Source: Roseofilum reptotaenium CS-1145
Lineage (GTDB): Bacteria > Cyanobacteriota > Cyanobacteriia > Cyanobacteriales > Desertifilaceae
DNA: 64,000 nt
Assembly: GCF_028330985.1 (NCBI RefSeq)
Contig: NZ_JAQMUE010000084.1
Coordinates: 1 to 64,000 of the forward strand
Direction: 5' to 3'
Shown: one piece after another, positions 7,263-42,405 of the stretch
How the letters are laid out: each line of letters begins with the position of its first letter
Numbering within the stretch: position 1 is the first letter of the stretch
Notes under the pieces: model-generated
Seen by the model: only the letters and a program-made list of their open reading frames with translations
What the model was told of the DNA's origin: nothing
Database searches by the model: none
Position numbers and translations under genes: made by a program

Positions 7263-7399
7263 TTTTAGAGTAATATAGCTGAGAAAGGGATAGTTAGGAC
7301 ATTTTCTATTGCGATTCGTGCCTATTGCCTCTTGCCTCAAACCATAACCTCAGTGTCCTAATCAACTCTTTCACGGCTATATAACTGGTCCGATCGCTG
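7263..7399. repeat. Left direct repeat of the vapBC locus, split by a MITE
   Basis: TTTTAGAGTAA at 7263-7273 and TAACTGGTCCGATCGCTG at 7382-7399 together match the uninterrupted sequence at 8194-8223. The MITE-like element lies between the two halves. The two repeats flank the toxin-antitoxin pair. Confidence 0.75.
7274..7381 (+). mobile_element. MITE-like element, copy A
   Basis: The element is 104 bp (7276-7379) flanked by TA on both sides. Its ends are imperfect inverted repeats of about 26 bp: TAGCTGAGAAAGGGATAG at the left, and the complement of TAGCCGTGAAAGAGTTGA at the right, each followed inward by TTAGGACA. The core contains GCGATTCGTGCCT, shared with copies B and C. It has no coding capacity. 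TA duplication is the hallmark of IS630/Tc1-mariner-type elements; that a related transposase moves it is inference. Confidence 0.8.
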
Positions 7400-21789: not shown

Positions 21790-21816
21790 TATAGCAGAGA
21801 AAGAGTTGGTGAGGAC
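21790..21816 (+). repeat. Solo end of the MITE-like element
   Basis: TATAGCAGAGAAAGAGTTGG followed by TGAGGAC matches the left terminal repeat of copies A-C, but no matching right end was seen nearby. It is probably a decayed copy or a recombination product. Confidence 0.6.
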
Positions 21817-21854
21817 TCCGGTTCAAGAGTGAAACTTAGCTACCATCACCTATT

Positions 21855-21881
21855 CCCTATTCCCTAGCGCGCAGCGCTATA
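21855..21881. repeat. REP-like palindrome with TATTCCC tandem
   Basis: TATTCCCTATTCCCTAGCGC then GCAGCGCTATA. The same unit, in either orientation and with variation, occurs near 15075, 16510, 41087 and 55632: a GC-rich AGCGC palindrome joined to GGGAATA heptamers. It is a dispersed repeat between genes. Confidence 0.65.
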
Positions 21882-33394: not shown

Positions 33395-34090
33395 GTGCCT
33401 GAACTTACCGATCTCGAACAACTCTCTACTGCCCTCTCGTCGCCGAACGGGAAAACCCAACTGAAAACCCTTGAGACTCTCAGCACTTTGGGGAGTTCAG
33501 GGGAACAGGTGCTGATGGATTTTTTGGCGAAGAGCGATCGCCACCATCCCACTTGGCCACAGGGAACGGCATTCCTAAAGCTCAGAGCATCTGATTCTTC
33601 TGTGGTACAAGAGTTTCTCAATCGTGAGTTTCCCCAAGGAATGGTTCCCTTAAATACCGATCGCGACATTGATTACAGCCCTCTACAAGACCTGTTAATC
33701 GAGCAGAAGTGGCAAGAGGCCGATCGCCTGACGCTCCTGAAAATGTGTGAACTCGCAGGAGAAAGTGCCATGACTCGGAAGTGGCTGTATTTCTCCGAAG
33801 TGAACCAATTTCCCCGAACCGATTTACACACGATTAATACCCTGTGGCTCGTGTATTCCGAAGGTAAATTTGGATTCTCCATTCAACGGGAGATCTGGTT
33901 ATCCTTGGGCAAAAACTGGGAAAAACTCTGGCCGAAAATTCAATGGCGTACGGGTAAAACTTGGACGCGGTATCCGGGTGGCTTTATCTGGGATTTGACC
34001 GCTCCCAAGGGACATTTACCCCTGACGAACCAACTGCGAGGGGTTCGGGTGATGGATTCACTCCTTTCCCATCCCGCTTGGACAGATTAA
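33395..34090 (+). CDS. gun4: Tetrapyrrole-binding protein Gun4
   Basis: Gun4 binds protoporphyrin IX and Mg-protoporphyrin and stimulates magnesium chelatase, the entry to chlorophyll synthesis. The 231 residues match the cyanobacterial layout: an N-terminal helical domain (about 1-80), then the GUN4 core (about 85-225) with DYSPLQDLLIEQKWQEADRL, WLVYSEGKFGFSIQ and YPGGFIWDLTAPKGHLPLTN. The start is GTG 33395, where homology begins. It is monocistronic. Confidence 0.93.
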   Translation: MPELTDLEQLSTALSSPNGKTQLKTLETLSTLGSSGEQVLMDFLAKSDRHHPTWPQGTAFLKLRASDSSVVQEFLNREFPQGMVPLNTDRDIDYSPLQDLLIEQKWQEADRLTLLKMCELAGESAMTRKWLYFSEVNQFPRTDLHTINTLWLVYSEGKFGFSIQREIWLSLGKNWEKLWPKIQWRTGKTWTRYPGGFIWDLTAPKGHLPLTNQLRGVRVMDSLLSHPAWTD

Positions 34091-34172
34091 CAGTAGGGAG
34101 AGGTGGATTCTTATGCTACCTTGATTGGTAAACAGATCAGAGATCTGATTGTTGTATTAGTGAAGTAAATCG

Positions 34173-35225
34173 ATGATCCAATTGAGAATAAAATCACTCG
34201 CCTTGGGTACAATGTTAGCAGGGTTGCTCTTGGGGGTAATGGCCTGTAACACCACTCCTACTAATGATACGACCGCAGAAGGCTCAGGTAACTTACCTGG
34301 AGAAGGTATAACCATAACCCCTGCCCATACTAGCTTGCTTGAAGAGCGCTTTCAAACTCTAATTATCAATAGAGCCTTAGAGGAATTGGGATATGAGACA
34401 GAAACAGCAAAAGAACTCACCTACCCCACCCTGTATACAGCGATCAGCAACGGAGATATACAGTACACCGCTGTGAACTGGGACAGATTACACAACGACT
34501 TTTACCAAAATAGTGGTGGAGATGAACAATTATCCCAAGTTGGAGTCCTAACCCCTACGGTGTTACAAGGATACCAAGTTGATAAGAAAACAGCTGATGA
34601 ATATAACATTACCAATTTAGAGCAGCTCAAAGACCCCGAAATTGCCCAACTCTTTGATACCGATGGTAATGGAAAAGCCAATTTGACTGGATGCGATCCC
34701 GGTTGGGGTTGCGAGTTGGTGATCGAACACCATTTAGATGCTTATGGTTTACGCGATACCGTTGAACACGATCAGGGTCAGTATTCGGCCTTGATTGCTG
34801 ATACCATGGTTCGCTATAAAGAAGAGAAACCTATTTTCTTCTATACTTGGACTCCCTATTGGGTGGGCGGTGTATTAAAACCCGGTGAAGAGACCATTTG
34901 GCTGGAAGTTCCTTATACCGATCTACCCGAAGCACAAGGGGAGGTGTCTGAAGCTGATACCACAGCCAATGGAAAAAATCTTGGTTTTGTAGTTGATCGC
35001 ATTATGGTTGCTGCTAATCAACAGTTTCTGGAGGACAATCCTGCTGCTAAAAAGCTCTTTGAAGTGGTGGAAATTCCCCTTGACGATATTAATGCTCAAA
35101 ACCTGCTAATGCAAGAGGGAGAAAATACCCCCGAAGATATCGATCGCCATGTGAATCAGTGGATTGCCGACAATCAAGAGTCATTTGATAGTTGGGTAGA
35201 ACAAGCGATGCAAGCTCAATCTTAA
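34173..35225 (+). CDS. Glycine betaine/proline-type ABC transporter substrate-binding lipoprotein, copy 1
   Basis: This 350-residue periplasmic binding lipoprotein of the ProX/OpuAC type probably binds a quaternary amine osmolyte. The signal peptide (TMLAGLLLGVMAC) ends in a lipobox Cys at about 25. Aromatic and acidic residues in VNWDRLHNDFYQ, FFYTWTPYWVGGVL and NLGFVVDR suit ligand binding. The segment LFDTDGNGKANLTGCDPGWG is EF-loop-like. No permease or ATPase gene is nearby, so it is an orphan component. It is followed by a terminator at 35264. Confidence 0.88.
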   Translation: MIQLRIKSLALGTMLAGLLLGVMACNTTPTNDTTAEGSGNLPGEGITITPAHTSLLEERFQTLIINRALEELGYETETAKELTYPTLYTAISNGDIQYTAVNWDRLHNDFYQNSGGDEQLSQVGVLTPTVLQGYQVDKKTADEYNITNLEQLKDPEIAQLFDTDGNGKANLTGCDPGWGCELVIEHHLDAYGLRDTVEHDQGQYSALIADTMVRYKEEKPIFFYTWTPYWVGGVLKPGEETIWLEVPYTDLPEAQGEVSEADTTANGKNLGFVVDRIMVAANQQFLEDNPAAKKLFEVVEIPLDDINAQNLLMQEGENTPEDIDRHVNQWIADNQESFDSWVEQAMQAQS

Positions 35226-35263
35226 TCCTATTTTCTTTCAGCTTGCCATCCATACTTTGGTAG

Positions 35264-35289
35264 ACAAGGGTCTAGCGACCCTTGTTTTA
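35264..35289 (+). terminator. Rho-independent terminator after copy 1
   Basis: ACAAGGGTC (35264-35272), loop TAGC, GACCCTTGT (35277-35285), then TTT. A perfect 9-bp stem 38 nt after the stop codon. Confidence 0.85.
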
Positions 35290-35450
35290 TCGAGAATTAT
35301 CAGCAAAAAGAAAAGGAATGAGTGTTGATTGTGCAGGTGACGAGGGTTGATGGTTTTACCAGAATTCATATCCTCTGGCCTGTTTTTTGAGTCTAGTCTT
35401 AATCGGTAAACAGAGCAGAGATCTGATTATTGTGTTAGTGAAGTAAATCG

Positions 35451-36524
35451 ATGATCCAATTGAGAATAAAATCGCTCACCTTCGGTACAATGTTAGCTGG
35501 CTTGCTCTTGGGGGCGATCGCCTGTAACAATACCTCTGGTGGCAATAATACTACAGAACCTTCTGGCGACTTACCTGGGGAAGGAGTAACAGTAATCTCC
35601 GCCCATAGTAACTTGCTAGAAGCGCGGTTTCATACTGAAATTGTCAACAAAGCCTTAGACCAATTGGGATACGAGACTGAAATTCCCAAAGAACTTACCT
35701 TTCCAACCCTCTATGTAGCGATCGGCAGCGGAGATATACAGTACACTGCTGTAAATTGGGAAAGGCTACACACTGAATTTTATGAAAATGGGGGTGGGGA
35801 TGAAAAATTAGCCCAAATTGGAGTCCTAACCCCTGCGGTATCACAAGGATACCAAATCGATAAGAAAACTGCCGATGAATATAACATTACCAGTTTAGAA
35901 CAGCTCAAAGACCCTAAAATTGCCCAACTCTTTGATACCGATGGTAATGGAAAAGCGAATTTAACGGGATGCGATCCCGGTTGGGGGTGTGAGTTGGTAA
36001 TCGAACATCATTTAGATGCTTATGGTTTGTGGGATACTATTGAACACAATCAGGGTCAGTATTCTGCCTTGATTGCCGATACTATAGTTCGCTACAAAGA
36101 AGGAGAACCCGTTCTCTTTTACACTTGGACTCCTCACTGGGTTGGTGGTGTATTGAAACCAGGTGAAGAAACCATTTGGATGGAAGTACCCTATACAGCT
36201 CTGCCAGAAGCACAAGGGGAGGCCTCCGAAGCTGATACCACAGCTCATGGAAAAAATCTCGGTTTTGTTGTCGATCGCATGAGGATTGCCGCAAACAAAG
36301 CGTTTGTGGAAGCCAATCCTGCTGCGAAAAAGCTCTTTGAAGTGGTGGAAATTCCCATTGACGATATTAATGCTCAAAACCTGCTCATGCAAGAGGGAGA
36401 AAATACACCCGAAGATATCGATCGCCACGTTAATCAGTGGATTGCCGACAATCAAGAGTTATTTGATAGTTGGGTAGAACAAGCGATGGACGTTGAATCT
36501 TATAGCAGTGAAAGACTTGATTAG
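35451..36524 (+). CDS. Glycine betaine/proline-type ABC transporter substrate-binding lipoprotein, copy 2
   Basis: This is the tandem paralogue of the gene at 34173, 357 residues, with the same lipobox (LLLGAIAC) and ligand motifs (FYTWTPHWVGGVL). Differences include Ser/Asn-rich residues after the lipid Cys and several changes near the pocket (DRLHNDFYQN against ERLHTEFYEN), so specificity may differ. Its C-terminus YSSERLD and its stop codon are encoded by MITE copy C, inserted at the TA of the ancestral TAA stop. The shared promoter-proximal sequence suggests similar control. Confidence 0.88.
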   Translation: MIQLRIKSLTFGTMLAGLLLGAIACNNTSGGNNTTEPSGDLPGEGVTVISAHSNLLEARFHTEIVNKALDQLGYETEIPKELTFPTLYVAIGSGDIQYTAVNWERLHTEFYENGGGDEKLAQIGVLTPAVSQGYQIDKKTADEYNITSLEQLKDPKIAQLFDTDGNGKANLTGCDPGWGCELVIEHHLDAYGLWDTIEHNQGQYSALIADTIVRYKEGEPVLFYTWTPHWVGGVLKPGEETIWMEVPYTALPEAQGEASEADTTAHGKNLGFVVDRMRIAANKAFVEANPAAKKLFEVVEIPIDDINAQNLLMQEGENTPEDIDRHVNQWIADNQELFDSWVEQAMDVESYSSERLD

Positions 36525-36604
36525 GACAGTGAGGTTATGGTTTGAGGCAAGAGGCACGAATCGCAAGAGAAAATGTCCTAACTCTCCCTTTCTCTGCTAT
36601 GATA
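36501..36604 (-). mobile_element. MITE-like element, copy C, inserted in a stop codon
   Basis: It lies in the opposite orientation to copies A and B; the core complement again contains GCGATTCGTGCCT. The left end TATAGCAGTGAAAGACTTGA is coding. The right end is TCTCTGCTATGATA, slightly altered. The matching position in copy 1 (TCTTAATCC at 35220) has no insert, which gives a direct empty-site comparison with TA as target. Confidence 0.82.
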
Positions 36605-36645
36605 CCCATTTTCTTTCAGCTTGCCATCGATCCATACTTGGGTAG

Positions 36646-36670
36646 ACAAGGGGCTGGAGACCCCTTGTTG
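36646..36670 (+). terminator. Terminator-like hairpin after copy 2
   Basis: ACAAGGGG (36646-36653), seven-base loop, CCCCTTGT (36661-36668). It corresponds to the hairpin at 35264, but the T-run after it is shorter, so termination may be weaker. MITE copy C now separates it from the gene by an extra 100 bp. Confidence 0.7.
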
Positions 36671-36701
36671 AGTCGAGCATTATCAACGAAAAGAAAGAGG
36701 A

Positions 36702-37772
36702 TTAGTGTTTATTGTGCAGGTGACGATGGTTGGTTGTTTTACCAGAATTCATCTCTTCTGGTAGGTCTTTTGAGTCCAGTGTATTGTTGTCCGTTACGGC
36801 GATCGCAATCAAGGGGCTGATCGCGGCTTGTCTTAGTCCTTGACGAACCAGTTCATTTAAATACCGCTGTTGCAACTTGTACCATTCTTTCCAGCATTCG
36901 TAACGCTGTTTAGTCAACAGCTTAGTCAATCCAGGCCCTTCCTGTCTCCAGTTAGAAGGTAGAACTTCATCCAAAAAAGCTTCCAATACCAAAGTATCTT
37001 GAATCGTGCCTAAGACTTCCTGAATTTGCTTAATCTCCTGCACATATTCTTGATAAACCGGCCCATAATGCTGTCTAAACAAGCTCATTTGATAGCGTAC
37101 CCGTTTCGCTTGTTTGCGCAGATCGTGTAATGCTTCGCCCTGTTCTGAAATCTGGGCTTCAGCCCCCTTGAGAGTTAACCGAGTTTGCCGCTTGATTTTC
37201 TCTCCATCTACAGTTACCCCAACCCACCAAGCTGGATGCAGCAATAATTGATTAATGTAAGGTAACAAGAGATCGGGTAATACACTATTAACCGGTAGTT
37301 CTGCCCAATTCTGATAGTGCGGCTCTTCCAACCATGTGTTTACCGACTGCTTAAAGTTCTTATACGTCTTACCCTTGAGGAAGTTTTTCACGGTTTTGAA
37401 AACTTTAGAGCGTCGTTTGGATAATTTTTGCAAGGCTTTCTCTAATAAGGGTTGCTCCTTAGCTTTTACTTGGGGTTGATACTCTTGCAGAGCTTCTTGC
37501 AGCACATCTAAATCTCGCAACTCTCCCAGGATTCTTGCCATTTTACCAATCCGCTTGTTACTCATCTGGGGGGGTAAGTCTAAAATGGGGGCAAAACCGG
37601 TAACTGCACTGCGTAACCGGCGCATTCCAACCCGCATCTGATGTAAATCTTCCGGATCTTGGTCAGCTAAAACCTTCTGTTCATAAGCAATCGCTTTGTG
37701 GAAATACTTTTCCATGCCCAGATAAGCCCAATCTCTTAACTGTTGCGTTTGAGAGTGTCGCTGTTGAATCAT
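36702..37772 (-). CDS. CHAD domain-containing protein
   Basis: CHAD domains are helical, positively charged modules that bind polyphosphate in characterised proteins. The 356 residues show the conserved-histidine repeats LHQMRVGMRRLRSAVTGF (about 44-60) and LHDLRKQAKRVRYQMSLF (about 217-234), with basic helices between. No CYTH triphosphatase domain is attached. The last 35 or so residues (LDSKDLPEEMNSGKTTN, then His-rich) are encoded inside the tandem duplication of the convergent lipoprotein genes. Confidence 0.9.
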   Translation of the reverse strand: MIQQRHSQTQQLRDWAYLGMEKYFHKAIAYEQKVLADQDPEDLHQMRVGMRRLRSAVTGFAPILDLPPQMSNKRIGKMARILGELRDLDVLQEALQEYQPQVKAKEQPLLEKALQKLSKRRSKVFKTVKNFLKGKTYKNFKQSVNTWLEEPHYQNWAELPVNSVLPDLLLPYINQLLLHPAWWVGVTVDGEKIKRQTRLTLKGAEAQISEQGEALHDLRKQAKRVRYQMSLFRQHYGPVYQEYVQEIKQIQEVLGTIQDTLVLEAFLDEVLPSNWRQEGPGLTKLLTKQRYECWKEWYKLQQRYLNELVRQGLRQAAISPLIAIAVTDNNTLDSKDLPEEMNSGKTTNHRHLHNKH

Positions 37773-41694: not shown

Positions 41695-42156
41695 ATGGAA
41701 GAACATTCTTTGGGCTTAAAGTTGGTGATTATGTATAAAGGGTTTCTCGCAGCAGTAATGGCTGTTTTAGCGATCGCCTCGGCTTGGAGTTGGAGAAATT
41801 ATGAGGCGATCCCACAGTGGGCAGAAGGCTACTTGGTTAATGGAGAATACAGCACCATTGAATGGATTGTTCATTACATCCTCCATCATCAAGTGTCCGA
41901 ACTGCAATTGATTGCCAGAATAGCTAGTGTTTATGCCCTAGGATTAGGAACAGCAACCCTAGGGTTATGGTATGGAAAATCCTGGGGAAATTTTCTTGTT
42001 ACCCTATTAGCTGGGTTACCTCTACCGGTGGAAGTTTGGCAATCGATTCACCATCCTTCAGCCAATCATGTCATCCTTTTAGGGTTGAATTTGTTGGTCT
42101 TTTTCTATTTGCTCAATCATCTCCAGCAGCAACAGAAAATGGCCAAATTGTCCTGA
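41695..42156 (+). CDS. DUF2127 membrane protein
   Basis: DUF2127 proteins are small four-helix membrane proteins of unknown function. The 153 residues start EEHSLGLKLVIMYKGFLAAV, with hydrophobic segments at about 10-30, 70-90, 95-110 and 120-142. The motif LGLWYGKSWGNFL and LPVEVWQSIHHPS agree with the family's GLWxxKxWAxxL and PxExxxxxxHPS. MITE copy B follows directly after the stop. Confidence 0.8.
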   Translation: MEEHSLGLKLVIMYKGFLAAVMAVLAIASAWSWRNYEAIPQWAEGYLVNGEYSTIEWIVHYILHHQVSELQLIARIASVYALGLGTATLGLWYGKSWGNFLVTLLAGLPLPVEVWQSIHHPSANHVILLGLNLLVFFYLLNHLQQQQKMAKLS

Positions 42157-42160
42157 TCTC

Positions 42161-42269
42161 TATAGCAGAGAAAGGGAGAGTTAGGACATTTTCTCTTGCG
42201 ATTCGTGCCTGTTGCTAGAGTGCCTTAAACCATCACCTAACTGTCCTAACCAACTCCTTTTCTGCTATA
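42161..42269 (+). mobile_element. MITE-like element, copy B
   Basis: The best-preserved copy: TATAGCAGAGAAAGGGAGAG followed by TTAGGACA at the left, and its near-complement TGTCCTAACCAACTCC then TTTTCTGCTATA at the right. The core has GCGATTCGTGCCT. It sits 4 nt after the DUF2127 stop. A further left end (42266-42290) overlaps its right end, so two elements may have inserted side by side and one then been lost. Confidence 0.82.
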
Positions 42270-42405
42270 GCAGAGAAGGAGTTGGTTATACCATTTCTCA
42301 TTACATCACAAACCGCTGTAAGCACTCTAGCAATAACTATTGTTCTATCGTGCCACCCTAGAAAAGGGTTCCCAGCCCCTCGCGTCTTTAAATATCAGTA
42401 GTGTG

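Follow-up and report, generated by a model that had tools for sequence, protein, structure and literature searches.

A MITE at the stop codon of a tandemly duplicated glycine-betaine-binding protein gene in Roseofilum reptotaenium, with a predicted seven-codon read-through

RUP (repeat unit of pneumococcus) is a 107 bp element with a TA target, about 108 copies, and ends like those of IS630-Spn1 (PMC2229807). As described there, it resembles the MITE reported here in size, TA target, and IS630-family ends; it belongs to another host, and the two are set side by side by description only. By the same account all six frames of RUP contain stops; the consensus of the present family, by contrast, is open throughout in one frame. 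ISY100 of Synechocystis is an IS630/Tc1-type element described as inserting nearly always at TA, with duplication of the TA (PMC2170065). Nezha and other cyanobacterial MITEs (cited in PMC10969869) are likewise short and non-autonomous, a likeness that also rests on description.

RU-1/ERIC of enterobacteria is a TA-duplicating, MITE-like element that, like the present one, sits where a conserved gene ends; according to Delihas (2007), the normal stop of the amidase ECA3499 seems to have been lost through it, and it supplies the C-terminus (PMC2759123). It is a different element that adds about 35 residues rather than seven, and the case as presented comes with no paired unoccupied paralogue. 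In Coxiella burnetii, all functional annotated genes affected by QMITE1 and QMITE2 are reported to carry the MITE at the 3′ side, with altered C-terminal residues, and C-termini are suggested to tolerate change (PMC5896051). These are again other elements, and IS630 is not named in the main text of that paper. MITEs that alter gene 3′ ends have been published before (PMC2759123, PMC5896051), and the present case is a well-polarised one.

The present MITE lies in a 64,000-nucleotide stretch of R. reptotaenium CS-1145 (contig NZ_JAQMUE010000084.1, positions 1 to 64,000), here called the window, which contains two tandem opuAC genes. In what follows, the genome of the window is G000, its sister genome is G001, and further Roseofilum genomes are G002 to G005. 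The features of the locus and the other full family copies of the window are as follows.

34173..35225, + strand: opuAC copy 1, OpuAC/ProX-like glycine betaine binding protein, 350 aa; unoccupied paralogous site
35451..36524, + strand: opuAC copy 2 of the tandem pair, 357 aa including YSSERLD; ancestral coding part up to 36500
36501..36502, no strand: left TA target, the TA of the ancestral TAA stop (sequence, orthologue alignment)
36501..36524, + strand: tail codons YSSERLD plus TAG, from the target TA plus the element (reading frame)
36503..36599, + strand: MITE, 97 bp, TAGCAGTGAAAG...CTTTCTCTGCTA (own-genome search; TIRs)
36600..36601, no strand: right target copy, TG instead of the expected TA (compared with TCTTAATCCC in G001, locus L010, and TCTTAATACCCATT in G004, locus L011)
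7274..7381, − strand: second full family copy in the window (own-genome search, nhmmer)
42161..42269, − strand: third full family copy in the window, 4 bases from the TGA stop of ORF 41695-42156

Copy 1 ends TCT TAA, with its stop at 35223-35225, as a first-pass annotation of the window had read it. At 36498-36524 copy 2 reads TCT TAT AGC AGT GAA AGA CTT GAT TAG and so runs through to a TAG of the element, which bears out that annotation's claim that the MITE entered after the TA of this stop. The interval it gave, 36501-36604, is right to within a few bases; the element proper occupies 36503-36599, the right duplicate is TG, and the A at 36602 was the last base of the original stop. The TIRs (36503-36514 and 36588-36599) match at 11 of 12 bases, and the new TAG sits in the left arm of the MITE, within its subterminal repeat. 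In the G001 orthologue (L010), TAA directly follows the codon equivalent to 36498-36500. The supply of coding sequence by the MITE is a prediction from the reading frame.

The proteins of both copies match PF04069 in Pfam (E 1.3e-44 for copy 1 and 6.2e-43 for copy 2), and E. coli ProX (1r9l) matches residues 40-347 of copy 2 (E 1.8e-109). The protein has both the PF04069 domain and a match to a solved ProX structure, as expected of the OpuAC/ProX group, and its tail falls outside the ProX-matching part. An AlphaFold model of copy 2, built with 32 aligned sequences, has a mean pLDDT of 85; the C-terminal helix is placed at 335-354 and so takes in the first four residues of the tail, but pLDDT is below 50 at residues 353-357. 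The gene has been under constraint, since copy 2 and its orthologue in G001 give a dN/dS of 0.22. Nothing suggests a role for the YSSERLD tail.

The MITE is one member of a large family. A search of its own genome with 36480-36640 gave at least 41 matches, window copy included, when 40 of 124 candidates were scored. A covariance model gave at least 62, which is a lower bound because 150 of 3331 first-look candidates were scored. In the loci examined (all 62 covariance-model places and nine more), nhmmer returned 73 hits at 70 distinct places, of which 55 are full-length copies of 80-121 bp, TA included. TA is present at the left of 46 of these, at the right of 48, and on both sides of 40. The elements are short, carry TIRs, contain no transposase gene, and occur in many dispersed copies, as bacterial MITEs do; they also show a target duplication and an empty site (L010), the window copy differing in its right duplicate. 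Their inner part varies in the number of short AGGCAAT-like units. With up to two mismatches, the TIR pattern matches the genome 104 times forward and 89 times in reverse, versus 26 and 28 for a reversed control pattern, and the repeat itself is far beyond chance. G001 holds at least 30 family matches (30 of 65 candidates scored), G005 three, G002 and G004 one each, and G003 none; outside the genus, 1 of 23 genomes has a match, 32 bases long. Rfam at gathering scores gave no match in the window, and no paper describing this family was found in the open-licence literature.

Ends of the same kind flank an IS630-type element in the sister genome. This TA-flanked element (L251, 1130-1982; 853 bp including both TA) lies at one of the 12 DDE_3 loci examined from G001 and G005; it contains HTH_Tnp_IS630 and DDE_3 matches and is interrupted by a single in-frame TAG and by 66 N. 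Counting the TA, the outermost 29 bp at the right end of the MITE consensus equal one end of this element at 29 of 29 positions, and the window copy does so at 28 of 28. The same outer right end agrees with the other L251 end at 26 of 28 positions, and the MITE left end agrees at 13 of 14. Ends common to the MITE and to an element with an IS630-type transposase, the latter found in G001 and not in G000, are good evidence for an IS630/Tc1-type ancestry of the family. No autonomous partner was found in G000, where no family end pair surrounds any of the 12 of 15 DDE_3 matches examined; this assembly is a draft of 113 contigs and may miss repeated IS. One G000 DDE_3 locus (L069) was rejected as a partner, its two weak end-like matches being unlike the family beyond the tip.

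The insertion can be polarised by comparison with relatives. Ten other Roseofilum rows were compared, namely six close copies from G001 to G005 and four more distant ones (L026, L027, L028, and L034, one of them from G000 itself), and further, more distant paralogues were set aside. The tail is absent from window copy 1 and from 10 of 10 of these rows. The same TAA serves as the stop in 7 of 7 genes, namely window copy 1, the two G001 copies, and those of G002 to G005, and each gene reads straight into it with no insertion footprint. Orthologues carrying the tail would have pointed to loss, as the first-pass annotation had proposed for a refutation; the reading as a gain holds. G001 carries both copies on one contig (C95), in tandem and in the same order as in the window, and its copy 2 is an empty site, GACGTTGAATCTTAATCCC, ending TCT TAA. 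The sequence to the right of the MITE, ATACCCATT, matches the empty-site flank of G004. Most likely the right target TA has become TG in the window copy, because the window flank TGATACCCATT agrees with the right part of the G004 row.

The tandem copies had been proposed as the occupied and empty sites of one locus, with the insertion placed after their duplication. Copy 1 is indeed unoccupied, but it is a paralogue at dS 0.52 from copy 2, and the G001 orthologue at dS 0.21 is the better empty site. The date after the duplication holds and can be refined: since L010 is empty and the dS values are 0.21 versus 0.52, the insertion is more recent than the G000/G001 split and much more recent than the duplication. 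By these alignments the tail was gained, not lost, after that split. The window MITE differs from the consensus by 5.1%, versus a median of 8.2% over 67 copies (55 of G000 and 12 of G001), and it is 97% identical to the nearest copies of its genome, which is in keeping with a recent move.

Copy 1 has a history of its own. Its distance to G001 copy 1 (dS 0.61) is no smaller than that to copy 2, and the tree that pairs copy 2 with L010 leaves the placement of copy 1 open. In alignment columns 900-1050 it is 91% identical to window copy 2 and G001 copy 2 and 76% identical to G001 copy 1, suggesting gene conversion or replacement in the last 150 bp of its coding part (34173-35222). Exchange there leaves copy 2 unaffected; tree support for pairing copy 2 with L010 is 100/99.

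Very probably, then, an IS630/Tc1-type MITE mobilised in trans entered the TAA of copy 2 after the split from G001, with a predicted read-through of seven codons. A non-autonomous MITE would have been moved by an IS630-type transposase into the TA of the copy 2 stop, in the Roseofilum lineage that followed this split. Duplication of the TA turned TCT TAA into TCT TAT AGC..., and translation would continue for seven codons to the TAG in the subterminal repeat, adding a presumably neutral tail. The TG at the right flank, where the target duplication is not intact, counts against this account, as do the failure to find an autonomous partner among the 12 DDE_3 matches examined in G000 and the interrupted state of the matching element, which belongs to G001.

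Among the alternatives, the insertion may act chiefly as RNA, through a hairpin at the stop that affects how the opuAC mRNA is terminated, degraded, or translated. The MITE folds as RNA into a long hairpin (−33.8 kcal/mol, z −3.4, with 2 of 200 shuffles as good), whose left arm holds the new stop, and an effect of this hairpin on the mRNA end is possible. However, long inverted repeats are a usual feature of MITEs, and a simple scan of 34000-37000 placed no terminator-like site in the MITE and one downstream of it, at 36738-36765. A chiefly RNA-level action is accordingly rated unlikely. Retention of the tail for a function in the binding protein, such as localisation, stability, or interaction, is very unlikely: the gene is constrained overall, and an RsuA-like protein (L130, below) has a tail from the same MITE family in both G000 and G001, but the opuAC tail occurs in a single genome, consists of seven residues of plain TIR sequence, and falls in a low-confidence C-terminus of the model. 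Least credible of all, and highly improbable, is an element older than the duplication or the G000/G001 split that was precisely excised from copy 1 and the G001 copies: the exchange signs at the 3′ end of copy 1 mean that its tract could have been replaced, but independent clean losses would be needed from seven copies that all lack a footprint, and the window MITE is near the least diverged copies of its own genome.

Under the insertion after the G001 split, the tail follows directly from the TIR sequence, because an element that hits a TAA or TAG stop must be read in the TAx frame. When an element with the consensus sequence enters at a TAx codon, it yields YSSERVD and then TAG if read from the left, or YSRERES and then TAG if read from the right; the window tail YSSERLD has L where the consensus has V, owing to a base difference. 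At an nTA codon, a TAG follows immediately. Entry at nnT leaves the frame open from left to right and gives 21 residues from right to left. Two of the three frames stop after zero or seven residues, because TAG stands at the tip and again eight codons in. Of the left ends of the 55 full copies, 46 carry TAG at the tip and 45 close the TAx frame within seven residues; for the right ends the figures are 49 and 47. Read from left to right, the nnT frame stays open in 21 copies. It is conceivable, though doubtful, that the family ends act as a portable soft stop from either end, with an immediate TAG in one frame and a seven-residue tail in another. If so, the family could colonise gene ends with little harm, and the element-made ends of the RsuA-like protein, a histidine kinase, and the L134 protein would have been kept since the ancestor of the two species.

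ORFs of 80 aa or more terminate inside a full copy in 7 of 55 cases. This count covers the 55 full copies, with the 15 partial places of the 70 left out, and concerns ORFs that run into an element, leaving aside genes that start in one. Relatives were compared for opuAC, L113, L125, L130, and L134, with L079 and L119 left out; the Pfam scan excluded L134 and gave no match for the candidate ORFs L079 and L119. At least four genes besides opuAC end within copies.

L113, CPBP/Rce1-type protein: ends HSRERVSYDS; G001 is without the element there and ends PIYKV
L125, GAF histidine kinase: insertion common to G000 and G001; only the left end remains in G001
L130, RsuA-type pseudouridine synthase: tail NIARSWLS, in G001 NIARNSLS; insertion common to G000 and G001
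L134 protein: ends EL; insertion common to G000 and G001

The insertions at L125, L130, and L134, three of these genes, are absent from the G002-G005 orthologues found. Element-made gene ends can persist past a species split, because these three are common to G000 and G001.

A preference of the family for stop codons is unsupported. With the 48 ORFs of 100 aa or more taken as genes, the window has 41 stop-codon TAs, 684 intergenic ones, and 2845 within genes, so that about 3.1 stop-codon hits would be expected if all 55 full copies avoided gene interiors. With one proven hit there is no excess, and the simplest reading is that the family targets TA and is observed where harm was small. The insertion is real but an ordinary kind of accident, and the case alone alters no general view. 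It offers a clean, dated natural experiment in which one locus can be seen occupied in copy 2, empty in the orthologue, and unoccupied in the paralogue. Further genes are ended by the family, some in common between two species and some not, and with these one could trace over time what MITE-made C-termini cost.

Several other arrangements were seen in these genomes. In G001, at L251:847-1134, the IS630-type element cuts off the frame of an ABC-type ATPase, and the resulting stop, GTA TAG, consists of the target TA plus TIR. At 42161-42281 a second left end comes after the third window copy and overlaps it at 42266, and at L137 (G000:C79:192257-192312) two family left ends lie head to head, 2 bases apart. 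Of nine extra places with a single TIR end, several (L138, L139, L141, and L143) were set apart as a second element type with another right end. A related element of this kind occupies 21790-21881 of the window; its left end, TATAGCAGAGAAAGAG, is that of the family, its right end, TAGCGCGCAGCGCTATA, is not, and it carries heptamer repeats of the CTATTCC type.
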